From contig CAJNOJ010000160.1 in NCBI GenBank assembly GCA_905250025.1, positions 124,001 to 188,000 on the forward strand: a stretch of DNA of 64,000 nt. Direction: 5' to 3'. The notes below the pieces were generated by a model. That model was not told the origin of the DNA and ran no database searches. It saw only the letters and a program-made list of their open reading frames with translations. The DNA is from Adineta ricciae (taxonomy: Eukaryota; Rotifera; Eurotatoria; Adinetida; Adinetidae). Positions 5,337 through 28,750 of this stretch are shown piece by piece. The position numbers were made by a program, and so were the translations under genes. Numbering within the stretch: position 1 is the stretch's first letter; every line of letters begins with the position of its first letter.

Positions 5337-8300
5337 TTAACTAATAATACAATCTTTCTTCCTTCGTCCTCCACTACTTTTCTTGTCCTTTTTATTCAAT
5401 GTCATTGATTTCTTCATTAACGATGGATTGATTGTATTCACTCCAAGACCACATTCATCCACATAACTAATTTTTGTTCCGTAGTTAATCGGCTTTCGTA
5501 GACGATTACCGTGGATGTCGTATTGGTAATAAATTGAATTCAAATCATCTTCTTCATCGTCGTCATCGTCGGATGATGATGATGAAGATGAACGACGTAT
5601 TGACGAAGCATTTTTCTTCGATCGATAACTCATTGTTGGTGAGCGTTTGTATGTTTTGTCCTTTTCATCATCAACAAATCGTACATGATGTTGTTTGGTG
5701 AAACGTGCTGAGCCGTTCAATGAACGCGAACGCGGAAATTGTGTCGTCGTACTCAATTTTGGTCGAGAAATAGGATACATGATTTCGTTGGAATCGAAGT
5801 TCTTTACTCGACTTGGCTGATCGATTAATGTTTCTTGGGATATGGTTGGATAGACTTTCGTTTTTGGTTTCGAGACAGATTTGTTACTTAGATCGGGTAG
5901 CGATGCGCGTGACGATTTCGATGTGGAACATCGAGCTATTTCTAAGGTAGCACCGTGTCGATCAAGTTGTTCAAGATTTAAGTCATTATAGAATTGAATT
6001 GGTTCACGTGAACGACTGCGCGTGATATTGATCTGTTGTTGATGATGTGACGCGTTCGGAGGCGATGTTTGATATTGAAGAAACACTTGTGGTTGTTGAT
6101 GGCGATTGTAACGACGGCTGCCTGTGCCATCAGACATATAACCACTCGTATAGTCACGTTTGGACTTTTGCATACCAGCACCATCGGAGACGTAGCCTGT
6201 TTGATCTTTGACTCGTCGAGGCGGTTGCTGATGAGATGGAAGTTTTGGACGAGGAGGAAGAACTCGTACATGTTGATTTGTATGTGTATATGACGTGGGA
6301 ATAATATCAGGACCTTGTTGATATTTGCTCTGTTGGAGTAGTTTCGAATTGATCGAACGGTTGTTTCGTTGGGATGCACATTCATTGGAACAAAACAATG
6401 CTCCGTAACGTGGGAAAAAGCCACGATTATGAAGTGGAATTCGACATGTATAGCAATAAAAACATGCGTCCGTTGCATGCCAGTGTTGGGACTCGTGTGC
6501 CATTTGAGGTTGGTCAGTTTCAATGCGTTCACCGCATGTGTCACAATATTCTGCATACATGGTTTCAAAGCAATTCAAACAAAAGGGTTGACTTTGACGC
6601 ATTACATAACGATCTCCACCCAAGCGCTTCTTACAATTCGAACAACAAAAATGATCCATATGCCAACTGTAACCTTCAGCTTCCGTGCATTCATCACTGA
6701 AGATAATCTACACAGATAAACAAGAAAACAAATTAGTTCACATCATAGTAGTCAATTACACTAAACGCGTTCATCTAGCATGATAAACAAAACATCGAGA
6801 CTTTTGACATATGTAAACACATGTCGAACATAAGTATATCAATGAACTATGAATTTGTCATCACTCAATACCTTACGTCGAAGTGGTAATGGTCTTTTAT
6901 CCATAAATGTGTATTGTCAAGCAAGTAACCTAATAATTTTCAACTGTTTTTACTCCTACATCGACGTATGTGTATATATACACGTATTCGAGTGTCTACC
7001 GGTTCTCCTCTATGATTATTTTTTAATGATTATACAATCAATTATAATTTCTTTTGAAGAGCAATTGTTCGTTTTTTCTATTCTAATGATTGATTATCAT
7101 TCTTCTTGCCTTACCTCATCACATGCTGTACATCGTGGTTTGTACAGTTCAGCATGATGTCGACCGCAATAAAGTTGACCGTCTTTGTGGAAATAGATTA
7201 GATTAACGAGGAATTCTTTACATTGAGTACAAGTAAAACATTGAGGATGCCAAAGACCAGTACGACCGGCTCGCTCGGCAAATACACATATCGAACCTGA
7301 ATCAATCAGTTTTTGACACTAGAAAAAGCAAAAGTAATTATGAGTGGAAGATATATGATTATTCTTATCATTTTATCTGTTTTTGATTTCACACTTAGTG
7401 TTAGTCGAAATGTCAAACTCACTTGTTGCTTCGTTTAATCAGTGAACTTTTACTTTGTCTATCCGTCGACCAACAATTAACTAGTCTATCGTTTGATGAT
7501 GATTTTCTTTCATGATGCATATCTATTTGTACTACATTGTTATCATTTCATCTGATTTTCTTTTGCCTCTCGAGAAAGATTGATCGACATCAAAAAGGTT
7601 GAACACTTCTACTTAACGAAAACGCCTCTTTTAACGCTTGCGCGATCAGAGTGGAAAAATCTTCCCACCACCGTGTGCTTCTAACCTTAGATGTCAAAAG
7701 TTTGAAATCGGATATGATCTCTTGATCTTATGTCATCATCGATTTGAACGTGTTCAAATTTGAGTGTTGAACTTACTCCACGACATGGCATAGGCGATTG
7801 TGTTAATGGTAATTGTCTTGCTGAACCACGACCAAGTGCATTATGTCGTTGTTGTTCATTGAATATTCTCAATTCGTTTTTTTCATCTTCATTTAATACA
7901 CGACAATATTTTGGATCTGAATCATGAGGGGGTAATTGTTCTTCAAGCATTCGCTATTACATAAGAATGAACATAATCAATAAAAGAAACTGAAGCAAAT
8001 CAGGTGAACTTTTTCAATTACCGTTCGATATTTCTCTCCAATCGAATTAAGAAATGGAACTTTGTCCTCAGGAAAACATTTGAAAAATTGTCGAACCTAC
8101 AAATGTACGAGTCGATCAATGTAATCATCTAATCTTCCATAGTACATACTTGTTCTGCTTTGAGGCCAGGGGGACACCAGGCATATTCTTCCAGAGCACA
8201 ACCTGAATCATCGTCACTATTCGATAAACGTGAATGTTGTTGATGTAGCATGTTCTTTGTTTCGTATTCGTTAAGATTAATTTGAGTATCTATACAAGCT
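5337..8300 (-). CDS. prickle: Prickle, PET and triple-LIM planar cell polarity protein
   Basis: Exons on the minus strand: 8150..8300 (first ATG at 8251), 8022..8096, 7777..7953, 7115..7318 and 5337..6707; about 642 residues from that ATG. The N-terminus holds [14 protein letters not shown] and the PET domain ([25 protein letters not shown]), followed by three LIM domains starting at [11 protein letters not shown], rich in paired Cys and His ([11 protein letters not shown]). The tail is Ser/Arg-rich and ends in CIIS, a CaaX prenylation box that vertebrate Prickle also carries. Prickle acts at the cell cortex with Van Gogh in planar polarity. The first exon shown begins after a good acceptor, so an upstream, probably mostly non-coding, 5' exon is likely; I could not place it. 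Confidence 0.93.
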
Positions 8301-10571
8301 CTAAAAAAAGAACAGTAAATGAATAAATACAAAGTAATACATCATGTCTGTCTGAATGTATGCATGTCTCATTCATGCATTCAAACGAAGAAAGGAGAAA
8401 AAGAATAGGGAGAGATAAATCTTTGTCATCTTTCATAAGACGTGAGAACAAAACGAACGATTATGTATGGACTAGTAAATCATCGAGATAAGATGTTGAA
8501 CTATTTCAAACGATGAAATAGCTGTTGTCGCATTCAATGAAAATGTTTCACGAAGGTTAAAAGGGATAAAAATGAAATGAGAGAACGAACGAACGAAGAT
8601 AGAATTCTCCTTGCACATAGCTGTTAACATTTTTTTCTATATTAAATTGATGTACGTTCGATAAAAAATTATAATAATTGGATAATAGGTCTACCTCTAC
8701 TTCGAATACAATTAGATCGAAAAGAATATTTATACATATCGGTTATCTAAAGTGCACATCTAAAAATGCCTCAACAGCTTTCTTTTTTTTCTTCAACATA
8801 TTTCTAATAACTTGTTTAAAGTTATGATGCAATCGTATGAGAAGATGAGCAGATGCCCTCTCTCCCTCTCTCTCTTGTTAGCGGACGTGCGAAAGATTTT
8901 GTGGAATAGTTGACAAGCAACAAATCGAGCAAAAAATAAGTTCCTTTTAACGATACTTAACGAGGAATGATGGTAGTGACGACAGCAGGCTTTTTTCAGT
9001 TAATGAGACTAACTCTGCGTTCTGTATGCTTCTTGGGAATAGAAAAATAAGGTACCTAATGAACGATAATCGCCTAGCAAAAGATTGCATGTATGAATAG
9101 TTAACGTTGGACGAAGAAAAAAAAAAAGAAAGAAACGATATATATGCATAATCGTTCAATCATTACTAGGAGAAGAAAGTTTTTGACAGATCTTTGAGTC
9201 TTTTGTTTACTTTACCTTTATGCGTTCTTGTCATGCTGTGAAGATATTGATTTTCAAATCTCTGTCGACGTCTTTTGTTTAAATTGAAACAAAATACACG
9301 CGTCGTTCTTTTCCCGTCTTCGTTCGTCTGAAACTGCGAATAAGCTGGCTAGGAAACGAACTGGACGTGTAGATATGAACAAAGACACAATGTTGCTCGT
9401 TCAATGACGATTGATTCGATCGTTAGAAGAAAGAAAGAGAAAAACACATATGCGCGTGTGATCGTTCGTTCGCCTGCTATAGCTACTGTACAAACAAAAT
9501 GATGCTGACTCGTTCGTTTCTTTTTCTCTTCGATGTGATGGAGAACGTCGTTGCGCCGAACGTTGAAAATTTGCCGTTTTCGTTCGCTCATCGAACGAAA
9601 GAGAGAAAAGGAAAAGAGAAAAGTTTGTTCAACGATTCGTTGCTTGTGCAAACAGCTGGCGATCGACGTAGCGCCATGCTTTGATCTTACTGTCTCGCAT
9701 TATTTTCGAGCGTGAACATTTTTTTCCTCGCCACCCCTTGTGGTCATCAGTCGTATTAAATGGAAAAGAAGTGTGACATATCAAAACAAAAAAATATAAA
9801 GCAGACACTATCATTAGAGAAAGGCATAGACAAACAAAAGCACTTGACTCGGACGATGTTTTTCTTCGGATGAAAGTATTTCGGTTTTTTCTAGTTGAAG
9901 AGATGTGTTACGTGTCAACAAGGAGTTCATATATCCGTTTTAGAAGTATGAATTAGCATATAGATTCGATTTCTTTTCCTTCTCTATTCAAACTCAAAGA
10001 ATTTCTCGTCGTCATTTGAAGAATGTGTGACTAAATTTCTATGCAAGTGAATACTTAATGATCAACATGAAAGTTTGTTCTTCTTCATTGCTAATCATTC
10101 ACATAAGTTTTCATGCGTTGAGTTTGGCTTGAAGCAAGATGCTTATCGAAAGCATTCATTAGTTGTACTCGTACCTTGATATTCACTTTGTATAAAAGGA
10201 AATATGTTCTCTTAGGGCACAAACAACCATCATTAGAAAGAGAAGAGTGAATATGAAATAACGATGCTCATCTTATTGAGTCATATATATCGATATGTAG
10301 ACGAAAATGAATGACTAAATCGTTTGTCTAATGAAAGCAAATGATTTTCTCTACAATGTTTGGTGAACTAAATTTATTATGTGGTTCTTTTTCCTTTTGT
10401 TTTAAAACCAAAACATAAACTGATGGACAGATGACTAAAAGAAAAGGGTTTGTAAGAAAAATAGCACAGAGGTAGCTCTAGGATGATACAAAGTAAGAAA
10501 GAAAGAAAGAAGTAATTCACAATTATTTGTCTTCTTGTTCCAGCTATATAATAGATATCAGAAAATAATTA
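8301..10571. promoter_or_regulatory. 2.3-kb non-coding region upstream of prickle
   Basis: No supported coding sequence. On the minus strand this is the upstream side of prickle and contains its 5' UTR, any first exon and the promoter; its far end is the 3' UTR of PFKFB. Between about 9290 and 9620 the palindrome-like words CGTTCG and CGAACG recur roughly six times, and AACGAACGAACGAA occurs near 8586. A CT-rich run (CCCTCTCTCCCTCTCTCTCTTG) lies near 8860. No protein similarity was seen in any frame. Confidence 0.5.
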
Positions 10572-13090
<2,519 letters not shown>

Positions 13091-14551
13091 CTCGAAAGAT
13101 TGTTGTTTTTTTTTTCAGGAAGATAAAAACAAGAAATGAATGTGCTATGCAATATGTCTCGTACTCAATGACAATCGAATACTTGTTTTGAAACGAGAGA
13201 AAAAGAAGAGGCGAGATTCTGATGGCCTTATTCTTTTTTCATTCCTGTATAGAAGTGAAAAGAAACAGTTTTCGTTCGGTATGAAGAGTATCATGTACTG
13301 AATAATTACATTAACAACAAACTGAATTTGCACGATGAAATTGTTTTCTTCGTAATTAAAACAAGACGAACGAGTGAAGTATTAGTCTGTACACTACAAT
13401 CTTAGAATGTAGTTATTTGTGTGTGTGTGTGTGTGCGTATGCACATCAGAAAAGGCATAGTGTGCTATGTCGACAAAGCAGAAGCTGAAGAACGCTATAA
13501 AATACTTGTCACATGATTACCTATGTAAGGAGGAGATGAAGAACGTGATGATTTAGGTTAATTAGAGACGTCGTAATAGCAGAAACTAAAATGCTGAGCA
13601 AAAGAATATTACCTATCAGTGAACTTTACTTCCTTGCCTAGAATGGGAGATGAAAAACAAGTCGACAAGTCATCGAGATAGAAATCAGATAGATGATAAT
13701 CAATTTGAGATAAAAATCGAATCGAGACATTTACCTTTGGAGGGTATTGGTACATTTTCATATGTTATTGGACGATCCACGTGCACCGATGATGGTGAAA
13801 TGAGATTAGCCGGGCTAGAACAATTACAGACATATGCGTATTCATTCCAAAATGATCTCATCATATAATTTCCAATATATCTCGGCCAACAAGCACAAAA
13901 TCTGCCGATACGAACTATTCTTTATTCGATAAGCCTTTACTCGTCTCAATTCGAATCGAAAGACATCCTTTAATGACACAAACTGATATCATACATTCAT
14001 TTTCAGACGAGCAATCACACACACAAGACTAGCATGATATTTTCGGTGATATAAACATACATTGCATACGTAGTGAATGAAAAGCATGATATACTTACTT
14101 CATTGTTGTCTTATTTTTGTTGTTGTTCGTTTGTTTACAATACAAAATCAAAATCTGAATTGAAGACAACCGTTGGTTTTTTTCTATGTCATATCTTTCG
14201 ATATTTTTTCTCGGTAAAAAGGAATGAAAAAATATGTATTGTGAGAGTATTTATTTTTTTTCTGCTCGTAATGATTGACATGTATATAGTTTATTTACAT
14301 ACGTTGGTGGTGCGAAAAGAAAAGACAAAAAATAGATTTCTATGTATGTGTATATATATATGTAAACACATATATATTTGATATTAAGAAGACGTATTGA
14401 AAGAATATTAACGCAGAATGATAGAAGCAAAGATCACACTAGTTGGGTTTTTAGTTTGATAAGTTAGTACATAACAATTCACGCTGGCACTGTTCTTGAA
14501 TATGTGCATGTGAAGAAAGAGGGCGAGGAAAACAACCGAAACGAACCATTC
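13091..14551. other. Intergenic, PFKFB 5' side and YOD1 3' side
   Basis: No convincing gene. It holds a GT dinucleotide repeat at about 13419-13435 and long AT-rich stretches. Short open frames near 13650 and 14073 have no domain, biased composition and no splice support, so I treat them as chance. The end next to 13090 should contain the PFKFB promoter. Confidence 0.55.
13419..13437. repeat. GT dinucleotide microsatellite
   Basis: Uninterrupted run of GT units followed by GCGT, upstream of the PFKFB start. Confidence 0.9.
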
Positions 14552-15812
14552 TCAAATTTTGATATGCATTAAATGGGATTCACTACTTGTTCCCGATGAA
14601 GTCTTTTTAAACGAGGTGGATTGCGGGATATCATCAGTGGTGGATGTGTTATATTGCTGAGCGAGATCTTTTGCCAGGGCCAGAATTTCTTCATCGTTAT
14701 GATGAAATTTCGTTTGGATCAGTTCTTTCTGTTGAACAACATCAAATGTAACCAAATATACTAAAGAAGAAAACATCGATGATGTCTTAGAAGTACGGTC
14801 ATTCGCACTCCTATTTACACGCCACCAGTAAGATTTCATCTACTCTCGAACTACTTCGTACGCATAGGAGGTCAACGTGTCGTGTGTACAATCGACGTAG
14901 ACTAACTTACCAGGATCGTAGTGTAAATTGTCATACAAAAGAAAAACCCGATAGGGAAAATGTCGATCTTCGCCGAAGTAATCAATTCGTCCTCCGCATT
15001 CGGTATTAATAACACAAATTTCAATTTCATATTCTTGTGTCAGTATTGCTAGTTCGATACCACCACCCCATGAATCGTCTGCAGCAGAAGAGAATACTAG
15101 CAAAGAGAAAGTGAAATGAACACATACCTCTTCGAATCCATTTCGAGTATTCGGAATTTGTTTGGCCGAGCATGGCTTCTGAATAGGTGATGTGATCCGA
15201 TTCGATTTTATTCGCCACTAAATTTCGTAGATATTTATTGGATTCTAAATCTAATTTTCCTGAATGTAGAACAAAGTAAATCGATGAAAATAAACAACTA
15301 TGATCAGCCGGCACAGCAAATCGTATAAGTTGACCGATGAGAGACTTCTTTGTTGATAAATTATTGGTTGTCTTCGCCGGAATAGAACTTGACGTCAACG
15401 AATCCGATGTATGTACCGATGATGCTGTCGGATGAAAGTAGTCCGACTTATCAAAAGCACTGGCCGTGTGATTATCATTAGTTGAGATTTCATCATTATC
15501 TTGTTGTTGACAAAGAATAAGTTCACTTAAATCAATGTACAATTCTTCGTCACTCGACAAACCGTACTTGTCAAGTGTAACAGACACATCATAGTGTGCG
15601 CTATTGAAACTATTGTTCATCGGATAGAGTAATGAGCAGCCATTAGGTCCATTGCGATAAATAGAAATATGGAGTAACTGATCTACTGTTAAATGCAAGT
15701 CTTGCGCAATTTGTTTTAATAAGTCAAGAATACGGTATCGAGCAGCGATTTGCATACGATGAAATTTATTTGGTTTTAAACAAATAAGAATTCGTAATAA
15801 GGGACCAGCCAT
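14552..15812 (-). CDS. YOD1: OTU-family deubiquitinase YOD1/OTU1, lacking the C-terminal zinc finger
   Basis: Three exons on the minus strand, 15128..15812, 14911..15078 and 14552..14760, giving 353 residues. The first 90 residues form the UBX-like domain that binds p97/VCP in this family. After a Ser/Thr-rich linker comes the OTU protease core: VPADHSCLFSSIY with catalytic Asp and Cys, [42 protein letters not shown], and YDNLHYDP with the catalytic His. YOD1 trims ubiquitin chains from p97 clients in ER-associated degradation. Animal and yeast members usually end in a C2H2 zinc finger; here the last exon has no Cys and ends in a Ser/Thr-rich tail. If the second intron were retained, translation would stop 26 codons after HYDP. 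Confidence 0.9.
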
Positions 15813-16839
15813 GGATAGATTCAGTCAATGATTTATTCAAGATATCTGCAAGAAAACGATTGATTTCTATTTATTTCTGTATTCACGTGCCTATTTGTAC
15901 TGAAACACGACGTTTGTTGTTTATTATTTGATCGATTGCCATACTGATTGTCATTAGTCCTTATTAGCCAGTCAGATTTGACTTATTGGCCGCTGTCAAT
16001 GCCAGAGAATACTCCTAAATCGATGCACAGTCATCTTTGGTGCACAATAAACATATTGACAATCTTTTACTCATAAAAATATTATATTCGGATTCGGCTA
16101 ACGAGAGAGGACGCCACAGTCACACTAATATGGTCCGAGTCGAAAGCTTAAATAGAATCGACTATTCTTCGCTTCTACAATCCGCTCATATGTTTCTACA
16201 AGCATGATCTTTACAATAGTTTATATTATCCACATCGTCAACCAACAAACATGACTGTTGGATATTGTATAAACATAATTAGTTAAATTTCATCCGATAT
16301 ACTCACAAAACAACATTTCTTTTCAATTGAACTTCTCATTTCGAACAAAGACATTATTCATTGACATGATCGTGTGCGATCTAATGTATTATTTATACAT
16401 GATTAGTTCTTCTCGAAGGATTGGATATAACTACAAAAAAATTAACTTAACCTTGCCTCGACAATTCAGTGTAACATTAATGACCTTTCATCAATAGTAC
16501 ATTAGTTTGTATGAAGTATATGTCATAGAATAGAATTTACCATTGAAAAACCTTGGATGATTTAATCTGATCGCTCGTATTGACAAAAACTCGGTTAGAT
16601 GACATTCGGAGTCTTTATTCAATAGAAATTTTGATGAATAATCGATGAAAAAGTTGAGTTGTCAAATTCATTCGAAGGAAATTTATCAAAATGAAAACAA
16701 CAATGACTACGTGTTACGATCTGATATATCTATACAAAGTGCATTTCAATCGATCATTGTACATATGAAATCTTGAAAATAATACACATACACAAAGGAA
16801 GAATTTCATAAAAAAATAGAAACGTTTACATGGATTCTT
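15813..16839. other. Intergenic, YOD1 promoter side and Pellino 3' side
   Basis: About 1 kb of AT-rich sequence with no supported coding region on either strand. Both flanking genes are on the minus strand, so it should hold the YOD1 promoter and the Pellino 3' UTR. Confidence 0.6.
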
Positions 16840-19120
16840 TTACTGTCTATGTATGGAATCTTGAAAGATTAAACGAACGAACGGTTTCGTTTCCGATAGT
16901 GCTATTGAACAAAATGGACATATGGATTTCAAACCTTTTGTTCCTGAAAGAAAGCAAAGCAATCTGTAAAAACAAGAAACGTTCACGCTAATCGCCTTAC
17001 CATAAGGCACTTTGATCTTTGACCAATACAATGCTGTGGATTGAGAAGTCATATGTCCGCAGGGTTGAAAAGCATAGGATGTGGTTGATTCATTATCTGT
17101 ATCTGGTATAACATAAAATGCAGATTCAATGCCGGGAATAATGGGGATGAGTGGACCAATTGTTCGACAAAGTGGACATTCTCGAGATTCTTTATTGTCA
17201 TTTCTTACGCCCCATTTGTGATTTCCATGAACATGTCCGCATGAAACATACACAAATGCATTCGGAGATGATGATGAAGTTGTCGAAGATAATGGATGAG
17301 TTTTGATAATTAACGTGTTCAATCCAACAGGACATTGTGGCTTTTTCGAGTTCAACTGATCTAATTCAAGTTCAAGTAAACGACGGGTCTAAAAATAAAT
17401 TGAATTGAATATTCGAGGAAGATTATTCAGGTCAAGAATATTTACCGGTGTCTTTTTAAGTCCTTCAACCGATCTCCAAAGCAGAGTAGCACCACATAAA
17501 TCAATCAGACTACCATCATTTAAAATATTATCCGTTGTCGATGGAGGCTAAAGCGAAAAAAATCAACTCTTCTATCTTCAATGATATATCTATCGATAAA
17601 TTTACTGTTAATTGATAGTTAAATTTTAGTCGTCCTTCCCCTAAATCGAAAACACTTCCACAGACTGATACTTCTTTCCATTTGCTTGGTTTTGAATTCG
17701 TATCAAATTGATCTCCATCGAGATGCATCACTAGAATACCATTCGTTGTCACACCATCCATTTCATTCTGATCATTCTTCCATTTGATAGATTTCTCCTA
17801 TTAGATCGAATATCAAGTAAAACTAAACATTCTGAAAAACAAAATCACATACGCCAAGAAAGATATTTTTCGACGCATCGAAGCCGGCAGCGTAAATTCG
17901 CGCTGTATATGGTGGATGCCGTGAAACAACAATACGACACGCATATCGTGAAATAGTCGACTGGGGTACGGTTAAATCATCGAATGTTTTCGCTCCAGCA
18001 ACAGTATCCATAACAATACAATCGATTTGATTTTCAGATGATCGGCCGATCTAAAAGCAAGTTTACAAGATGCTTCCGAATAATACCACAAAAAAGATTT
18101 TCACTCACCTGAAACATATCAGAATCTTCATCGTGAGAATATTGTACAACGACAGTTTGATTTCGTGACAACGTATACGATATCGAATGAAAATCAGCTT
18201 GGGTCAATTTCTAAAAAAGGAACACGACAGTGTAATACATCTGGTACAGACATCTTCGACATCATAGTTGCATTTGAATAAGGAGTATGTATGAATCCGC
18301 TTATTTACACGAAGCCTATTGCTCTTTGATAGTTTCACACGCAATATGTGTACAATCAATCCACACTCGTCTAACATTCAATCAATATCGATTACACACA
18401 CATGATTGCATCACCATCGTCCCTCTTATTCCTTTCTGCCTATCACCATAACCTCAAGCTATTTGAAGTCAAAGATATTATTACTTTTCTTTTCAAAATC
18501 AATACTACTGTGTTTTTTTTTTCGATTACCTGTACTTCATCAGCATTTTTACAAAGATGTTGTCGTTGCGCTTTCAAACCATTGGCATGCGAACGTTGTC
18601 TTAATTGAAATTTACTTTTTCGTCTCCCACGATCACCTCCAGGAATCTGTCCATTGTATCTAAGAAAATAAAATTCAATAAATATATGCATAAGTACGTT
18701 TGAAGATAGACATAATAACCCGATCTGAAGGTCTGTCATATGATAGTCTCTATTTTCTATTCACTACTAGCCTTGAATGTATATGATCATGCTTATTGTT
18801 ATCGAACGATTAGACAGATTGTTCAAGGCCAGTCAATTAGTTTGACATCTTTTGTGAAAGAAAACGTTCAGACGAAAAGATGGACTTTAAGTGTTCAACT
18901 CATGATAAACAATCATTCTCTCACTCTTTATCTCTAGATAGTTGATAAATATTGACCGTACAATCGATTGGACTCTCCTATTAACAAATTCTGTTCAACT
19001 GGAAAGAATTTTGCACAATAATTTCAATGAAAAATTCTTTGTAGCATACCCAAGAATAACTAATTCACCATAGTTGATTTGTTGTGGAGACGGTTCTTCG
19101 TTTGTGTTAATGTCCGGCAT
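16840..19120 (-). CDS. Pellino: Pellino E3 ubiquitin ligase
   Basis: Eight exons on the minus strand: 19050..19120, 18530..18659, 18109..18210, 17853..18050, 17606..17797, 17446..17547, 17001..17388 and 16840..16943, giving 428 residues (human PELI1 has 418). The N-terminus matches the family start (YGELVILGYNG, GDRGRRKSKF). The FHA-like phosphopeptide-binding domain includes SISYTLSRNQTVVVQY, MFQIGRSSENQID and STISRYACRI. The RING-like C-terminus has CPVGLNTL, VSCGHVHGNHKWG, RECPLCRT, PCGHMTSQ and ICPFC. Pellino adds ubiquitin to IRAK/Pelle kinases in Toll/IL-1 receptor signalling in the cytosol. The first intron is long (390 bp). All joins keep frame and every Cys/His pair of the RING-like region is present, so the protein should be active. 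Confidence 0.96.
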
Positions 19121-19922
19121 TGCATATGATGTGGACAAAGCAAAACAAAACAAAAAGTGCACTCCGATAGACAGCGAACAATTCTTAGGTATAATAGTAG
19201 TAGTCCTGTGATAGAAAAGGAAAAAAAATAGTGGTCGAATGATTCGTTTTATACGAAGAGAAAGGGACTATATTCTTCTTCTTCGTCCTCTTTTTTTTCC
19301 TCTGTCTACTGCTGATGCTACTCGACGAACGAGCGAGCGAGCAAGAGGGCATATGTATGTGAGGTTATACAGCATAGATGTATATTCAAAAAGCAAGTAA
19401 AGAACAAAAAATGAAGTCTCCCCTTTCGCCATCGACGACGACGATAGAAAGAAAAAAAGAAGAAGAAGAATTGTACGTTTGTCATTCTATATATAATTAG
19501 AAATGAACACGAAAAGTGATGATGAACATATGGAAAAAGTTCTCGCCTTTAGTTTTTTGTTTAAATTCAATTTTCTCTTCGTACAATGTTTTCATACAGC
19601 AAGCCAAAAGAAAATCACGATTTGTACATGCTCTGATGATAAACAATTAGATCTTTCTTATTTAAGATTTTCAAACGATCATCAAATGTATTTCAAAGGA
19701 CAAATACTATTTAGCCCATTATACCTCATACCTATTCGTTTCGGTTAGTTAGTTGCACGCATACGGTATGTAGGTGTAATTATAGAAAGTGATTCATGAA
19801 CAATATGCTTGCTATCATGCTGACGCATTTGCATACCTATCTACATATATATACGTACATATACAGTTGTTTTGTCATTGTTGTTTTATTTTCATCATAA
19901 CAAACTAAAAGCACAAGCAAAA
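19121..19922. promoter_or_regulatory. Divergent intergenic region between Pellino and msrA
   Basis: Pellino reads left and msrA reads right from this 0.8-kb region, so it should contain both promoters. It includes a purine-rich run near 19445-19470 and an 81-codon open frame at 19503-19748 without recognisable domain, which I do not call as a gene. Confidence 0.5.
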
Positions 19923-20384
19923 ATGCAAGTTGCGACGTTTGCCGGTGGTTGTTTTTGGCGTATGCAATCGATCTTTTCTCGAGTTCCTGGTGTCGTAGGA
20001 ACTGTTGTTGGTTATGCCGGTGGTCATGTAGCTAATCCCACCTACCATCAAGTTCGTTCGGGAACGACAGGCCATGCCGAAACAGTTCAAGTCACATACG
20101 ATCCCAACTACGTTTCGTACGCTACTCTACTGCAAACTTTCTTTTCAAGCCATGATTCGTCGCAACTTAATCGACAAGGTAACGACGTCGGTACAAATTA
20201 TCGATCACTGATTTTCTATCACGATGGAAGCCAAGCACAACAAGCTATAGATTATATCAATTATTTAAGGAGCACGGGAGTACCGGTTGTGACACAAGTT
20301 ATACCCTATCAAGCATTTTATCCAGCCGAATCGTACCATCAATTTTTTGAAGCACGTCAGCATTTGTACCAACGCACTTATTAA
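19923..20384 (+). CDS. msrA: Peptide methionine sulfoxide reductase A, intronless, bacterial-like
   Basis: A single exon of 153 residues starting at the ATG at 19923; in-frame sequence upstream has no further ATG. MsrA signatures are FAGGCFW with the nucleophilic Cys at residue 10, VGYAGG, PTYHQV, GTTGHAETVQV with the catalytic Glu, HDSSQLNRQGNDVGTNYRS with the catalytic Asp and Tyr, and FYPAESYHQFF. The enzyme reduces methionine-S-sulfoxide. The FAGGCFWxM and LNRQGNDVGTxYRS wording resembles bacterial MsrA more than the GMGCFWGAE form of animals. It contains one Cys only, so no resolving Cys is available in the chain, and the acidic residue that usually follows GCFWxx is Gln. No signal peptide is seen, so a cytosolic location is likely. 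Origin by gene transfer is inference. Confidence 0.92.
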   Translation: MQVATFAGGCFWRMQSIFSRVPGVVGTVVGYAGGHVANPTYHQVRSGTTGHAETVQVTYDPNYVSYATLLQTFFSSHDSSQLNRQGNDVGTNYRSLIFYHDGSQAQQAIDYINYLRSTGVPVVTQVIPYQAFYPAESYHQFFEARQHLYQRTY

Positions 20385-22062
20385 CACTAGTTTCGATTTT
20401 TTAAATAAAATTTTTTTCTTCAATAATCATTCGTAGCTAATCATATATGAACATTTCTCTTGATATATAAAGATGTAATAGTACGGAATAATAATCATCA
20501 TCTCCTTCTATTATACATGCATTCCGCTGTGTACGATGAACAGATTATATATTCTTCTCGTAAGAACATGCGTTATCATTAGAATTTCAGTGCGTACAAA
20601 ATCAATCGTGTATTCATTGACCTTGAGTTTTGGACAAAGCTAAAACACCTCAAGATAGTTAGAATGACCTAGTTTGCCAATCATATAAGTAAACGGTTGG
20701 AGAAGTCTCGATCGATCTCGAACGAAAGATAAATTGTAAGCAAAAAGATAAGACGTTGTTACGAGATAATAATTACATCGATTATCCAACATGTTTATTC
20801 GACTTTGTAATGGTGTTATTGATTTCTGTTTCTGCTTTAATGCTCGAAATGATCATTGGTAGATTCTTTTGTGTTTTTCTTCTGCTTCAATCAAACTGAT
20901 CAGCTTTGTTTCGACCTTCAGGTAATAACAATTAATCGACAATACCTATTTACAAATGTTTTCGGTCACTCCCATTGGTTGTCACGAAGAGAACTAGTTC
21001 TCAAAGAACGCATCGTTGCTAATTATTTCAACTCATTTTCATTTCGAATGACACAACTGAACCTTTCATTATCCAAATTAATAAATATCTACTCAACGCA
21101 TTCTACTTTATACTTTGTCTGTTAACACATTTAAAGAATCGCAGACATTTAAGAATGTTTTTCTCTACAGAAAAATCATAATACCACATCACAACAATAT
21201 ACAAAGAGTTCCAACCGAAAAAAGAAGAAGTTACAGATAAAATATTAGGCATTTTTGTCTCTTCTTGGATAATAATAATCAGATATAGAAAAAGCGTCGC
21301 TTTTTTTTCCCTTTGTATTTCTGTTGTCCTCGCGTATGGCCTTATCATCCATACTAATACGATTCCTCAATCATACCTCAGAACAGAAGAACATCAATTG
21401 GGAAAATGTTAGTCTTGTGTTAAGCACATATATTGCCATCATCGTTGTTGTTCGAAGACGTAAATATTTTTAGATCCTCTCCGCCTTCGCTTACAATCAC
21501 AATTTTGTCTAATCTCGTACAGAAAGAGAAGAAGGAGAGGAAGAACTAACAAAATCAAACAAAGGAGAGAGAGAGAAAAAAATACTATCGTCGAACTATC
21601 TATATGCTCATTATCAATAGGCATATGGATGACGAATAAATATCTGAAGAAAAGCAAAAGAAGCTAAATCTATCTATTTCTTGCATACACGCATTCATAC
21701 ATGTATACAAATCTATACGTAACTAGTAGAACCGCATTTTCCCTCTCTCTCTCTCTCTGCCGTTGCCATCTCTTTATCCAATCGCAAAAAGGAATATGTG
21801 TCGAAGATCGAGAGAGTACCTTCTCTGTCTTCTATCTATCGAAGATTTATTGTTGCTGTTGTTTTCATTCGCAATATGGACATGTATTTTTCTTCTCTAA
21901 GGCTGTTAGCTAACCTAGACACAATTATTTCCGTCTTCGTCTTCGAATAACATTCTTATTATCTATATCATTCAGTGATCGTATTATTAACCTTGAATCG
22001 GATTTTTCAGATTTCTTGTATTCGTCTAATTTTCTTGAACGAAAAGTTTCGAACCGGTCAAA
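20385..22062. promoter_or_regulatory. Non-coding region upstream of tropomyosin
   Basis: About 1.7 kb without a supported gene. It includes the msrA 3' UTR (AATAAA-like sequence just after the stop at about 20402), long AT-rich sequence, and a CT repeat near 21740-21757. The end near 22062 should hold the main tropomyosin promoter and 5' UTR. Short open frames here have no domain. Confidence 0.5.
21740..21758. repeat. CT dinucleotide repeat
   Basis: Run of CT units about 320 bp before the tropomyosin start exon. Confidence 0.7.
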
Positions 22063-25000
22063 ATGTCATCCAATGCAAATACAACAGCCACGATGGATTC
22101 CATCAAAAAGAAAATGCAATCGATGAAACTCGAAAAAGAGAATGCGGTTGATCGTGCTGAACAAGCCGAACAAAAACAAAAAGATCTCGAAGAAAAACTT
22201 AAAGCCGTATGTGACATTGACTGTTCCGTACAAAAAATTCATATTCATTTCGTTTGTTTTAGTCAGAAGAAGAAAGCAACAGTTTACAGAAAAAGATCCA
22301 ACAAATCGAAGCAGAACTTGATGCTGCTCAAGAACAATTAGGTGAAGCTAATGGCAAATTAGAAGCCAAAGAAAAAGCTGCTACCGATGTAAGTCTTCCA
22401 TTTGTGTCCTACTTTCAAGTATCTACTAGCCGATCGATCGCGACTGATACCAAGGACATGCGATACCGATCAGTTGAGTCATTTGCTCCTCGCATCTCTG
22501 AAAAGTTATACCATTCCACAGTTACTCGTACCAGTATCGTTTCCGAGAGACAAACTACTGCATCACAAAACGGTTGCCCATTCCTAACGGAATACTTCAC
22601 ATTCTTTCTTCATTGCAGTTACCTTTCCGAAAATGACGAAATGAATTCTAACTAGGTGGCGCAGACAGCTCTGTAGTGGTCAAGAAGTAACCAATGCTTA
22701 TGACATCTATATGAATCACCGATGCGGAGGCGTTGTGAGCATGACGTATGGTAAATCAAGAGTAGGATTGAGTTTTGTAACTCACACACGCACATACATA
22801 ATCACAGTATAAAAAATAAAAAGAAAACATGTCAGCCAACTTAAACAATGGTACTTTACGATCGTTGCATCGCGCACCTCAGCAAAGTCCGAGTTCTTCA
22901 TCAACGAGCGAGTCAGGCAATTCAGTGATTGACACTATTCGAAAACGTATGCAACAAATAAAAGATGAATTGGCTAAGTCGCAAGATGATTTGCATGCTT
23001 ATCAGATTGAACGTGAACGTGAAAAGCATGCACGAGAACAAGTGTGCTACGTCTACGATTAACAAAAGCACGCTTTGTTTTTCATGTGTTTGTTTAGGCT
23101 GAAGGAGAAATAGGTGGTCTTCAACGTCGTATTCAATTAGTCGAAGAAGATCTGGAACGTACAGAAGAACGTCTAACACAAGCAACACAGAAACTCGACG
23201 AAGCTTCGCATGCTGCTGACGAAAGTGAACGGTAAGTATGAAAACTGCTCATCGACGAAATATTGATCTTCTTCATAGAATAATTAGTCATTTGCTAACT
23301 TATAAATCGAAACTAAACAAATGAACGAAAAAGAAACACTTAAATCTTTTAGAAAACGTCTTATTCTCGATGGCAAAGTATCTGGCTTTGGAGACAGATA
23401 CGAAACACTTGAACAGCTACTCAAAGAGGCAAAACAATTGGGTCATCTGAATGAGAGAAAATACGAAGAGGTAGACAAGTAGAAAAATGATTTAACTAAC
23501 CGAATTACTAATATTTGATTGCTGATTTTACTAATCTTGCACATACATACGATTTTCTTTTATTTCTGTCTTTTGCTATTGAGTGAGAAATAAGGTCTAA
23601 TCTGTTCTTTGCTTGCTTTGTTCTAACTTCTATTTATGTTTATTTTTTTTCTTCTTTCAATTCCAAGTGGTCGCAAAGGTCTTGAACAACGTACTTTTCA
23701 AGATGACGAACGTATTGCCACACTTGAACAGCAATTGGCCGAAGCACAACTTATAGCTGAGGATTCCGATCGAAAATATGACGAGGTGATTAAGAACTTC
23801 CTCTTGATGATAACGAGAGACTATTCTTGAGACTATGAGAAAACTAAATTGAGTCCTTTTCCATGTGAGTCCAGGTTGCTCGTCGTATTGCCATTATGGA
23901 AGTCGATTTGGAACGTGCTGAAGATCGTGCTGAAGCTGCTGAAGCGTAAGAATGTCTGCGTGTCTTCTTCGAACCTTTCGCACGATGATTTCTTTGCTCT
24001 ACTAATCCATAGTTTTTCGTTTTTCATGCATGTGATTTGCAGTGATAAAGTTTTGGTTTGATTTTTCAGGTCGCACGAAAATTGAAAGTGCGAGAAAGTG
24101 AATTGGAAAGAATCGATGATCGCGCCCAGAGAACCGAAGCGTATGCATGACAAGCATTCGATTTTCTTACCTGCATGTGTTTGTGTCTTTCGTTTTTGTT
24201 TTGTCTTGTAGTAAAATAGCACAATATGAACAAGATTGGAAGCATTTGCATTATGAATTACGCTCGAAAGAAATCTTTTTAACTAAGGTAAAATGATGAT
24301 CTCATTTGAACACTTTGTTTAGGAAAACTCTTGAACTTGAAGAAGAACTCAAAGTTGTCGGTAACAATATGAAATCACTTGAAAACTCTGAACAAGAGGT
24401 AGTTGACTGAGAATGTTATATGGCAACCGATTTGACTTCAAATGAATGATCTCCCCAACCTTTTGCTTGGTTTTACATTTCCACATGAAATCATCGGAGA
24501 TTGACTTTTTTCTATATTTCTTACTTTAGGCTATCCAACGTGAGGAAAGTTATGAAGAACAAATTCGTGATTTGACAACACGTCTTAAAGATGTAAGTAT
24601 CGATAGGAAAGAGTCTCTTTTTTCGAAACAAAAAAAGAAACCAAATGAAAACTTGCATGAGTGTGCAAAGAAACGACATCATTCTATCAATCATATGAGT
24701 ATAGGCTGAACAACGTGCTGATCTTGCTGAACGTACAATGGCCAAATTACAAAAGGAGGTCGATCGCCTCGAAGGTAATATTAGATAAACATTTCTCTAT
24801 ATATTGCACATCTGGTCTGGTAGTTTTGCATGGTTTTTGATCTTCTATATTTATTCTCTCTATATATGGCTGCATGTAACTTAGTTCTGTATGTATATAT
24901 CTAGACCGAAGACAAAGCTGAGAACAGTGAACGTACAATGTGCGTCTTACAGAGACGAATAAATCAATTGAAAGGTATTATTTTCTAATCTGCCATGTTT

Positions 25001-25673
25001 ATCAGATAGATTATGACAGTTTGAGATACATATGTCTACCAGTGAGAACAGTTCGAATTACATTCCAAACATGTCTATACATCTTAAATAAAGGCAATTA
25101 TTGAGTTGTTAACAGTAAAAATCGAAGGTTAGAAAAACTCGACGATGTTAGTTGGTTCTTTTCTGTTTTGATAAAACTTCGGTGATAACATGTAGAACTT
25201 AGTATGATTGAATTAACCTAATCTACTAATAAACATGCATGTTTTTATCCTTGTCTTGATTTTGACCTGCATCCGTGTGTTTCAGGTGAGATAACATCCG
25301 AGAATGTACGCAGCAAAAGTTTGCAATGTGAAATGGATTCGATGATCAACGATCTTCAGAATGTGCTTTGATACGTGTTGTTGTGTTGTTGCTGTGTATA
25401 TGTTACGAATATTCCAGTTTTTCTCTTGATTTGTTCGTCTTACAATTATTATCCTTACCATTATTATTCTTATCATTGTTTTGTATGTGTAAATTTATTG
25501 ATCAATATTTTTAATCGTAAGCGAATGTTCGCATTTTCACCCGCTTCCTTCCCGTATGAAAATATGCTAATGTATCATTTATTTCCATAGACGAATTACT
25601 TGCCGAAAAAGAGAAGTACAAGGGTGTCAGCGACGAACTCGATATGACATTAAACGAATTGTCGGGTTATTAA
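22063..25673 (+). CDS. TPM: Tropomyosin gene with two start exons and five alternative exon pairs
   Basis: Tropomyosin is a coiled-coil dimer that runs along actin filaments. Start exon 1a is 22063..22206 (the conserved start MDSIKKKMQ is at 22093; an in-frame ATG lies 10 codons before), then exon 2 22263..22388. Shared exons are 3 (23098..23231) and 7 (24530..24592). Alternative pairs are 4a 23353..23470 / 4b 23668..23785, 5a 23875..23945 / 5b 24070..24140, 6a 24212..24287 / 6b 24323..24398, 8a 24705..24774 / 8b 24905..24974, and terminal 9a 25286..25371 / 9b 25591..25673. Lengths 134, 118, 71, 76, 63, 70 and 83 nt equal those of vertebrate exons 3-9, and one choice of each from 22093 with 9b encodes exactly 284 residues. 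Heptad periodicity is clear in every exon. Including both members of an internal pair breaks the frame, so pairs should be mutually exclusive. Confidence 0.95.
22389..22828 (+). promoter_or_regulatory. Intron 2 with probable internal tropomyosin promoter
   Basis: 440 bp between exon 2 and the internal start exon, much longer than most introns here. No coding sequence is supported. Position alone suggests it carries the promoter for the short isoforms. Confidence 0.45.
22829..23041 (+). CDS. TPM: Alternative first exon of tropomyosin (short isoforms)
   Basis: A 71-codon exon with its own ATG at 22829, ending at a GTGTGC donor in phase 0, exactly the phase required by exon 3. It lies between exons 2 and 3, the same position as exon 1b of vertebrate tropomyosin genes, where an internal promoter makes short isoforms. 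About 30 Ser/Gln/Pro-rich residues come first, then a coiled coil ([20 protein letters not shown]). The promoter would lie in 22389..22828. Confidence 0.85.
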
Positions 25674-26192
25674 TCAATGATATAAAACTATTTTGGTGGT
25701 GGCGACAACAACAACAGCAGCAACTAGCAATTTTTTTTTCTACATGTTTTTCCTGTTTTGTCTATTATACCTATATAACCTTTCTGTGAATTTTCATGTG
25801 CGCGACAGTGCCCGGGGGACACAAAGTTGCTTTCTTTCTTTTTTTATTCAACTACCGTAACCAAACAATGGTTCTTTGTTTTTCTTTCTAATTAGATCAT
25901 GCACACTTATACACATTTTTTCATCTTTTCTCTTGAAATTTATCATATTATGTCTCTCTAACTAGTTCAGTCTTCTTCTTCTTTTTCTTTTCATTCTTCA
26001 AACTATTTCAAATCGTACAAATAAAAGACAAGCATCAAAACCCTGACAATTATTCATGTCGCCAGTAAAAGTCAACTTCGATGATGTAAGCACACAAAAG
26101 AACAAAGATAAACACGATCTTACTTGACTTTGATAAGACAATAGTGTACGCAGGAATTTACGATTACACACTGAGACAGATACTTCGAAAGG
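25674..26192. other. Tropomyosin 3' UTR and promoter of the TIR-domain gene
   Basis: No coding sequence. It starts with CAA/CAG-rich sequence near 25705 and is otherwise T-rich. An AATAAA sits near 26020. Confidence 0.55.
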
Positions 26193-28750
26193 ATGTATGC
26201 AAATCTTGAACAGCAATTAGAAACTATCGAACGAAATAGTATAGGATGGAAGTCATTAACTTTCTACGATCGATCGTTATTACAACAATTAAGTACATGT
26301 CTACAATCGTGCTTAGCAATCACACCGGAAGATTCGTTTTTGAATCTGGTTATGAATCAACGTACACAAGTTTTTGACATGTTCGAATGCATATCTACAC
26401 ATTTATTCAAACAATGGAACCATCACAAACGTTCATTAGTCAATGAACAGATGAATTACTTGACGCTCGTAGGAAAATTCAATCGACGAATAGCATTGAC
26501 CTTGCAAAACGATAATGATGATCCTTATAGTAATGAAGATGATGACGAACAAAAGAACAGCAATCTTGAACAGCAAAAACGTGTTCGAGAGTTGTTATTT
26601 GATAATAATAATGATCTATTTGTTCTACTTGTGGATATGTTGCCACGAATAAGTGAACATGATTTCGATTTCATCGATATGATTCTACCATGGTACGAAT
26701 CTTACATATTTTTCGAGCATAGTTATATCGATTCGACATTAGATGACAAGTTTCTTAGTTTTAACCAACAAATTATTCAATGTTTGAAGTCCAACGAATA
26801 CGAACGAAGTTTACTAATATTCGAACATGATCAAACGCTGATAACAACTGTTCGTCATCGATTTTATTTAGGCATATGCACAATGGCGATGGGTGTTCAC
26901 GTTAATTGTGACGATAACGAATGTGATGACGCAAAAAACCTATTAGAGTCGTATCTGTCACGTTATATTACATTTATACATCATCTTCTTCAAGATGATC
27001 AAATCAATTCATTGAATAATTTAATTTGTATAACGGGTATTATATCATATTTAGTTAATTATACACTAATTATCGAGAATGATACTAACCGGCAGTTTCT
27101 GATTGATTTGTTTGTGCTAGTTTTGAATGAAAAGTTCTATGGAAGCATTTTTGCTAATTGGTCAACGTATGAAACGATTCTAATGGATTCAGTGATATGT
27201 TATTTGATTATTTATTGTTATGATGATCGTTTATTAGTTGCCGAGATGATTCGAACGGATAAAAATTATGTTAAAAAACTCGAACATTTGATAGATCAGG
27301 CTCAAAATGCTGGTAATCGTCGTATAGCAATCATGACACAGTTGTTCCTACTCATTCTAACAAGTTGTACAAAGAATTATGATTTAGCAGAGAAATTCTT
27401 TCTCTTGTGTTTAACATATATTCAAATGTCATTGGATAATACACAGTCGTACCATTATAATCGCATACCGATGAGTTTATTTTTCAAAAGTATTTTACAT
27501 ATTATGAAGTACGAACCGATTCAAGAGATCATTGCTCAACACTATCTGAATTTATTCACGGATATTCTTATTAATTATGAAAAGAAGTGTTTACATGAAA
27601 ACATTATTTATCGTGAGTGTGCGATGATTGCATGTACGATCCTATGGTCATTGTCGTTCAATGAAAACATTCGAAAACAGTTGAAGCATTGTGATAAAGA
27701 CTTCTTCGATGTTTTACAAGCGATTAACACGAATACAAATGAATCGACGGTGAAACAAGCGACATGTGGGTTACTCTACAATCTAAATCGATTAGTTTTT
27801 GATCGAGTAAGTTCACATAATTTAGTTTTAGATGTACAGTATGCTCAGCTGAATCGTATTTCACATTATCAATCCCGTAGGGATTGCGCACTAATCGCTT
27901 TTTTACATAGAATTCTTCGACAGCAAATGATAATTTCGGGAAGACAATCGGAATCAGTTATGATTCGTCTGATCAAGCAACCGTCGTAATGATCGAACAG
28001 GAACTAAATAAAAGTGGCTATCGTGTATGGACAAATTATGATCATATGGACGATCAATTCGTTCCCACATTTGTCTCACTGATGACCAGTACACAATATT
28101 TAATTGTTTGCCTTAGTGATATGTATCGAATGAATAATCGTTGTCGTACCGAACTTCTCTATGCGACAGCGTCAGGTCATCATGTTCTTTCGTGGAAAGT
28201 CCAAATTCCTACGAATGATCCAGAAGAGAACGAGCGCGTTCGCGTTCGTGCTGTTGAGACGTTGCTAAAACGTATTACATCAATTGGCACCACTAGTCAA
28301 CAGGGTGCAGAACTAGGAGAAGTAGCGATTCATATGGAGAAACACTCGACACCGACGAATTTCAATCGTCGTCGACGAACGAAACAAATCATGAACGTAG
28401 AAAACTGGACGAACGCAGAAGTCTTAGCATGGTGCGAACCATTAAACATGCCGGGTTTTTCGAAACTATTCGCACGTTTTGATGGTCAAAGTGTACTTAA
28501 ACTGTACGAATTCTGCAAACAGAATTCTACTGAAACCGTCGCAGTTTTAAATAACGATTTGCATAACATATGTAAACAAGAGAATGAAGTTGACATTCAA
28601 ATATCCGTCCATGAATTTATACGTTTTCAAATCGAAGTGGAAAAATTGATCACACCATCGATCATGAGAGGTTCGGCATTATCACTATCGTCATGGAAAT
28701 CGAGTCTACCGAAAAAACGATTGAAGATTCGCACGTGTTCTATTCTTTAG
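26193..28750 (+). CDS. Helical-repeat, TIR and SAM-like protein with C-terminal CaaX box
   Basis: Two exons, 26193..27806 and 27911..28750, with a GTAAGT donor and a TTTTTTACATAG acceptor, giving about 817 residues. Residues 1 to about 538 are all-helical and look like ARM/HEAT-type repeats. Exon 2 opens with a TIR domain: KTIGISYDSSDQATVV (strand A), GYRVWTNYDHM, YLIVCLSDMYRMNNRCRTELLYA. The Glu of RCRTE sits where TIR NADases have their catalytic Glu. A SAM-like segment follows (VENWTNAEVLAWCEPLNM onwards). The chain ends KKRLKIRTCSIL: a polybasic stretch and a CaaX box with Leu last, the pattern for geranylgeranylation. SARM1 has the same kinds of domains but in the order ARM-SAM-SAM-TIR. 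A signalling or NAD-cleaving role at a membrane is inference. Confidence 0.8.

Follow-up and report, generated by a model that had tools for sequence, protein, structure and literature searches.

Tandem alternative exons are a recurrent theme in tropomyosin genes, and the gene considered here is a further case, located at positions 22063-25673 on the plus strand of a 64,000-nucleotide (nt) stretch of the rotifer Adineta ricciae (assembly GCA_905250025.1, contig CAJNOJ010000160.1, positions 124,001 to 188,000), hereafter the window. In vertebrates, TPM1 has pairs at exons 6 and 9, a short-form start before exon 3 and the same exon lengths as the gene in the window, whose internal pairs equal the vertebrate exons in length; TPM1 is not known to have pairs at exons 4, 5 and 8. 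The concept of internal paralogs was reportedly put forward by Irimia et al. in 2010 for the mutually exclusive tandem exons of metazoan tropomyosin genes, in which up to 77% of the long- and short-form sequence is said to be form-specific; in some lineages the long and short sets have reportedly split into separate genes. The gene in the window resembles such genes in its long and short starts, its tandem exons and its long- and short-type sets. It differs in having pairs at exons 4, 5, 6, 8 and 9. It also differs in that a single genome contains the composite gene, a long-type duplicate and short-only genes; this combination and the repeated RBFOX marks are the less ordinary part. Its two interleaved exon sets probably yield two tropomyosins and not 64 mixtures.

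Thirteen tandem-exon events have been reported in four human tropomyosin genes and seven in two fly genes, and in Caenorhabditis elegans lev-11 six such events stand beside the N-terminal one, with three more in Drosophila (PMC9741552). The same source describes these events as apparently unrelated between phyla, the N-terminal one excepted. Like the window gene, lev-11 is a single gene with two promoters, several tandem exons, and long and short isoforms (PMC10512467, PMC9741552), and the exon names E3b, E4a, E5a, E7a-c and E9b imply variants (PMC10512467). It differs in its exon boundaries (lev-11 E7 encodes 47 amino acids), and its events reportedly bear no apparent relation to the human and fly ones. 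The initial annotation had called pairs at exons 4, 5 and 8 unusual, which holds against vertebrates only, since C. elegans lev-11 and Drosophila have further tandem-exon events (PMC9741552). Among the paper titles listed for rotifer or bdelloid tropomyosin, none dealt with this gene.

Coordinates, phases and splice sites of all 15 exons were rebuilt by script, and the gene was intact, with the extent, the five tandem pairs and the two start exons of the initial annotation. Its identity as tropomyosin was borne out by Pfam profile PF00261, which both forms passed (long set 289 bits, short set 171.4 bits, cut-off 38.6). The long form starts in exon 1a (22063-22206, 144 nt; 92% amino acid identity to exon 1a of C2, a duplicate gene in the same genome) and alone includes exon 2 (22263-22388, 126 nt; 88% identity to C2). 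The short form starts in exon 1b (22829-23041, 213 nt), directly before exon 3, with 34-38% amino acid identity to exon 1b of separate short-only genes (E values 2.7e-9 and 3.0e-10). Both starts, 1a+2 and 1b, run in phase 0 into exon 3 (23098-23231, 134 nt by the exon reconstruction), which, like exon 7 (24530-24592, 63 nt; 21/21 amino acids as in C2), is common to both forms. Conserved and diverged copies were assigned by comparison with the solved TPM1 chain and the C2 duplicate. The conserved copies, assigned to a long or muscle set, are 4b (23668-23785, 118 nt; 38/39 amino acids as in C2), 5a (23875-23945, 71 nt; 23/23), 6b (24323-24398, 76 nt; 23/25), 8a (24705-24774, 70 nt; 23/23) and the C-terminal 9b (25591-25673, 83 nt with stop; 25/26). 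The diverged copies are 4a (23353-23470, 118 nt) and 5b (24070-24140, 71 nt), both placed in a short set by exon trees, 6a (24212-24287, 76 nt; 35 nt from 6b) and the C-terminal 9a (25286-25371, 86 nt with stop), also placed in the short set, and 8b (24905-24974, 70 nt), which by a non-significant exon-8 tree is perhaps a later copy of 8a. Amino acid identity of exon 9a was 12/26 and 11/26 to the short-only genes, 7/26 to 9b and C2, and 6/24 to TPM1. From exon 4 on (23353-25673), which copy of a pair comes first, the diverged (D) or the conserved (C), alternates as D-C, C-D, D-C, exon 7, C-D, D-C, that is, diverged first at 4, 6 and 9 and conserved first at 5 and 8 (chance 1/16), so that adjacent exons of the same set are grouped in blocks. 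A candidate small exon near 25105-25150 was set aside after inspection by eye, as a stop was met in the exon-9 phase.

Copies within pairs 4, 5, 6 and 8 are equal in length, as annotated (118/118, 71/71, 76/76 and 70/70 nt), and these lengths are not divisible by three. Intact splice sites had been claimed for every copy; this is right for pairs 4, 5, 6 and 8, with AG acceptors and GT donors, but the exon-9 copies are both terminal, so that 9a and 9b have an AG acceptor and a stop of their own and lack a donor. Tested pair by pair in a long-form background, joint inclusion of the two copies at 4, 5, 6 or 8 led to an early stop, and inclusion of both exon-9 copies ended translation at the 9a stop, in line with the annotated loss of frame. 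Exclusivity at pairs 4, 5, 6 and 8 is enforced by frame; at pair 9 it would come from the stop in 9a. The 35-nt gap between 6a and 6b is below every intron modelled in five tropomyosin genes of this genome (at least 46 nt), so lack of space for an intron is probably enough to make pair 6 exclusive. An AATAAA poly(A) signal lies downstream of 9b (26020-26025, plus strand). Because none of nine poly(A)-signal hexamer variants was found between 9a and 9b, transcripts ending in 9a probably read through to this signal as a shared end. Form-specific coding sequence amounts to 77.7% of the long form and 76.3% of the short form. The heptad repeat is continuous across exons, with 66/82 a/d positions core-type in the long form from residue 11 on. 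The muscle form begins 10 residues ahead of the canonical Met (22063-22092), as does C2 exon 1a. Since the 4 nucleotide differences between the window and C2 in these 10 codons are all synonymous, this conserved N-terminal extension is probably translated, which would be unusual for a head-to-tail polymer.

Under the reading preferred here, start 1a would lead to a long, muscle-type protein (1a-2-3-4b-5a-6b-7-8a-9b) and start 1b to a short, non-muscle-type protein (1b-3-4a-5b-6a-7-8b-9a), with only exons 3 and 7 in common. The copies joined in each protein, and the tissues, are what we infer from sequence. A search for family members in the genome that the window comes from (130 Mb, 1033 contigs) gave 14 matches. 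Five loci were worked out as tropomyosin genes, namely C160 (the window), C2, C26, C90 and C115; the two matches at C137 and those at C40 and C59 were left aside. The C2 gene has exons 1a, 2 and 3 and one copy each of exons 4-9, all of conserved type (4b, 5a, 6b, 8a, 9b). In the C2 gene, peptides of the diverged copies had matches (E below 0.05) at its conserved exons only, and 1b was not found. From exon 3 on, C2 introns are 46-66 nt long, except for 134 nt between exons 5 and 6. The C2 segment is collinear with window 5335-62979 in 25 blocks, so C2 arose by duplication of the entire region. Loci C26 and C90, which share 94% identity across 9.1 kb and differ by a coding synonymous divergence (dS) of 0.116, are allelic, and C115 is their duplicate (coding dS 0.87). 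All three encode short tropomyosins only, from exons 1b, 3, 4 and 5 fused, 6, 7, an exon-8 pair (8x, 8y) and one exon 9, all open, and queries with 1a and exon 2 at these genes matched just their 1b region. The 8x/8y pair was perhaps duplicated independently of 8a/8b, and between the short-only duplicates 8x has changed faster than 8y (nonsynonymous divergence, dN, 0.245 vs 0.040; 23 codons each).

Exon trees were compared for six rows (the window conserved set, the window diverged set, C2, C26, C115 and TPM1) under three topologies; C90 was omitted because it is allelic to C26, and 8y stood for exon 8 in the short-only genes, with 8x not in the trees. For exons 4, 5, 6 and 9 together (111 residues), the diverged set joined the short-only genes (log-likelihood difference 13.9, 100% of 200 bootstraps), and the alternatives were rejected by the approximately unbiased (AU) test (p 0.0054 and 0.0052). 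Each of these exons alone preferred the same tree, and only exon 9 rejected one alternative singly (AU p 0.017). The grouping held with all five exons together (AU p 0.026 and 0.007). After the regional duplication, C2 would have kept the long-type set and shed start 1b together with its five diverged copies, and the separate short-only genes would have arisen earlier, as the tree suggests.

TGCATG, the RBFOX motif, was noticed by eye before counting, and the count covered the introns between exons 3 and 9a, 1321 nt in all. Seven copies were present, whereas the remainder of the window predicts 0.34, the strongest enrichment among hexamers seen at least four times; dinucleotide shuffles had a mean of 0.34 and reached seven in 0/5000. 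All on the plus strand, the sites lie at 24027-24032 (37 nt before 5b), 24144-24149 (starting 4 nt past the end of 5b and 62 nt before 6a), 24172-24177 (34 nt before 6a), 24654-24659 (45 nt before conserved 8a, the exception), 24827-24832 (72 nt before 8b), 24871-24876 (28 nt before 8b) and 25236-25241 (44 nt before 9a). Four of the five diverged copies (5b, 6a, 8b, 9a) have one site 28-44 nt ahead of the acceptor, and no site lies before 6b, before 7 or before 9b. The short-only genes have exactly three intronic TGCATG each, all in the two introns flanking 8y, which belongs to their sole alternative pair; in shuffles of these introns, three were reached in 0/5000 for C115 and 4/5000 each for C26 and C90, and both short-only duplicates (dS ~0.87) retain two in the 8x-8y intron. 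The two intronic TGCATG of C2 share one intron, the expected place of 5b and 6a, which suggests that C2 lost these exons rather than never having had them.

RBFOX-type RRM exons were found in the genome at two loci, C36 and C4. The joined C36 RRM had RBFOX1 as its best PDB match (E 2.5e-35), with C. elegans ASD-1 at 1.1e-28; the five best were fox-1 homologs and the sixth ASD-1, ahead of other RRMs among the best 60 of 78 matches. RBFOX bound upstream of an exon is reported to favour skipping and, downstream, inclusion (PMC5840707). ASD-1/FOX-1 repress egl-15 exon 5B via an upstream UGCAUG (PMC3585155), and FGFR2 exon 9 is likewise repressed by RBFOX (PMC2880598). Both egl-15 5A/5B and FGFR2 exons 8/9 have UGCAUG just upstream of one copy, with RBFOX present; they are single pairs, whereas the candidate sites here would span four pairs of one gene. 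In rat cells, RBFOX2 is described as a repressor of the non-muscle exon 6a of Tpm1, its depletion raising that exon (PMC8419188), which is the kind of action proposed here. RBFox1 is also said to enhance a muscle TPM1 transcript through UGCAUG (PMC12905364), which agrees in outline with the proposal but is enhancement, not repression. Since the sites lie upstream and upstream binding is published as favouring skipping, RBFOX may repress the diverged copies in muscle by binding UGCAUG shortly before them, tying pairs 5, 6, 8 and 9 together, so that one trans-acting factor would flip several pairs at once. This step taken alone is put forward tentatively, at slightly less than even chances, its direction and tissue being drawn from motif position and the published RBFOX rules.

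Several observations weigh against the preferred reading or its RBFOX step. A long branch, of about 1.1 substitutions per site, leads to the diverged set, and a parametric bootstrap was run because of this, with 100 alignments simulated under one of the two rival trees (diverged with conserved). In favour of the grouping, none of the 100 reached the observed 13.87; the maximum was 6.4, and 22/100 favoured the grouping by more than 0.01. In raw identity, exon 4 of the short-only genes is nearer 4b (18/39) than 4a (15/39), and their exon 6 is about tied (7-8 vs 7-9 of 25). Exon 8 alone preferred 8b with 8a, not significantly, so that 8b may be a later copy and not an exon of the short set, and the exon-8 pair of the short-only genes indicates that the choice at exon 8 need not follow that between long and short form. 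As for the motif, a site at most 45 nt upstream was present in 4/5 diverged vs 1/5 conserved copies, too few for significance. TGCATG is absent from the intron stretches 1a-2, 2-1b, 1b-3 and 9a-9b, which lie outside the 1321-nt count, and one further copy is inside exon 1b. None occurs around pair 4, where a check for GCATG, GCACG and TGCTG gave a single TGCTG, in the 4a-4b intron, and nothing explaining the pair. The site before conserved 8a does not fit a simple rule of repressing diverged copies, nor do the two that closely follow 5b, a position from which RBFOX should promote inclusion of that exon.

These misfits, with the bare pair 4, speak for an alternative in which the two-isoform core is as proposed, overlapping with the preferred reading, but promoter choice or a factor other than RBFOX sets the exons, TGCATG having another role. 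Such control is rather unlikely, though it is the best placed of the alternatives; the enrichment is strong and recurs in the short-only genes around their sole pair, where two sites persist in the 8x-8y intron of both duplicates.

A less probable alternative, which we consider distinctly unlikely, is that each pair is chosen independently and many of the 64 combinations are made in different cells. All 64 of the 64 exon combinations are open to the terminal stop, as the initial annotation had proposed, and rat heart Tpm1 yields several full-length isoforms with distinct exon linkages (PMC8419188). The exon-8 pair kept by the short-only genes and the lack of TGCATG at pair 4 point the same way. 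Open combinations are, however, a coding possibility only. The paralogs carry two largely coherent sets, exon 8 being unclear, with no diverged copy or 1b found in C2 and no 1a or 2 in the short-only genes, and the trees for exons 4, 5, 6 and 9 all prefer the same grouping.

The diverged copies have the properties of real exons. Read in the phase that the gene requires, they contain no stop before that of 9a, and each of the four internal copies has exactly the length of its partner; all five were jointly stop-free in only 3/20000 mononucleotide shuffles. Core heptad positions are kept at 29/40 in the whole-protein register, compared with 32/40 in the conserved copies, and this fit was reached in 0/20000 within-exon permutations. 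Between the window and C2, the conserved copies of the alternative exons are under strong constraint (dN 0.019 / dS 0.49); the values were dN 0.065 / dS 0.72 for exons 3+7 and dN 0.072 / dS 0.99 for 1a+2. No close relative of the diverged copies was found in the genome, hence no dN/dS estimate applies to them. That they are decaying or unused leftovers, with the long form alone being made, is very improbable: they do evolve much faster than the conserved copies and all five are missing from C2, but they are free of stops, match their partners in length at the four internal pairs, have canonical splice sites and have kept the heptad register over a long branch, with an intact 1b start and TGCATG beside four of them.

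C2 is long-type in body and not necessarily long-only, because an unrelated alternative first exon lies at the 1b position, between exons 2 and 3 (573 nt, C2:1313692-1314264). It has 191 codons with a Ser/Thr-rich head, in phase with exon 3 and unrelated to 1b. Its open frame of 198 codons was reached by 1/5000 mononucleotide shuffles. The head matched only itself in the genome search, had no Pfam match and gave one weak PDB match (E 0.025). It recalls the atypical Drosophila Tm1-I/C with its large disordered domains (PMC10512467). A DNA search of the genome for an allele of the window gene found only the window itself and the C2 duplicate; the allele may be collapsed, lost or missing, although the alleles of the short gene were assembled separately. 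Scans of viral and prokaryote contigs confirmed no relative of the window gene. Allelic dS of about 0.12 and duplicate dS of about 0.5-1.0, together with the collinearity, resemble bdelloid homologs and ohnologs, for which published mean dS values are 0.14 and 1.27 in Adineta ricciae and 0.05 and 0.61 in A. vaga (PMC5916493). They fit the rotifer origin presumed in the initial annotation and point to a bdelloid, probably Adineta-like, source, and the genome looks like a degenerate tetraploid.

The surroundings of the gene differ between the duplicates. Window 6620-22060, about 15.4 kb between a LIM-domain gene and the tropomyosin gene, corresponds to about 120 nt in the C2 duplicate and includes a peptide methionine sulfoxide reductase (PF01625) and other reading frames. 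Just downstream of the tropomyosin gene, window 26175-28750 holds an open frame of 604 amino acids that occurs once in the genome and had no Pfam match (600 amino acids scanned); it overlaps a frame with a TIR domain (PF13676), possibly as one gene. The repeat (TGTGGG)6, tried as a telomeric mark of bdelloids, was found on five contigs; its reversed control (24 overlapping matches vs 22) is the same repeat in another register, which makes the test uninformative.

Two open questions are touched by this locus, namely how distant splicing choices are coordinated in one transcript and how isoforms become separate genes. One genome holds a composite gene, a duplicate missing one exon set, independent short-only genes, and a concrete, mutable candidate cis code. 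It is conceivable, with somewhat less than an even chance, that a single RBFOX code (UGCAUG 28-44 nt before 5b, 6a, 8b and 9a) switches four pairs and makes a 64-way gene act as a two-state one, in a tetraploid-looking genome that preserves the path from isoform to gene. If true, the route from isoforms of one gene to separate genes would be readable in one animal.

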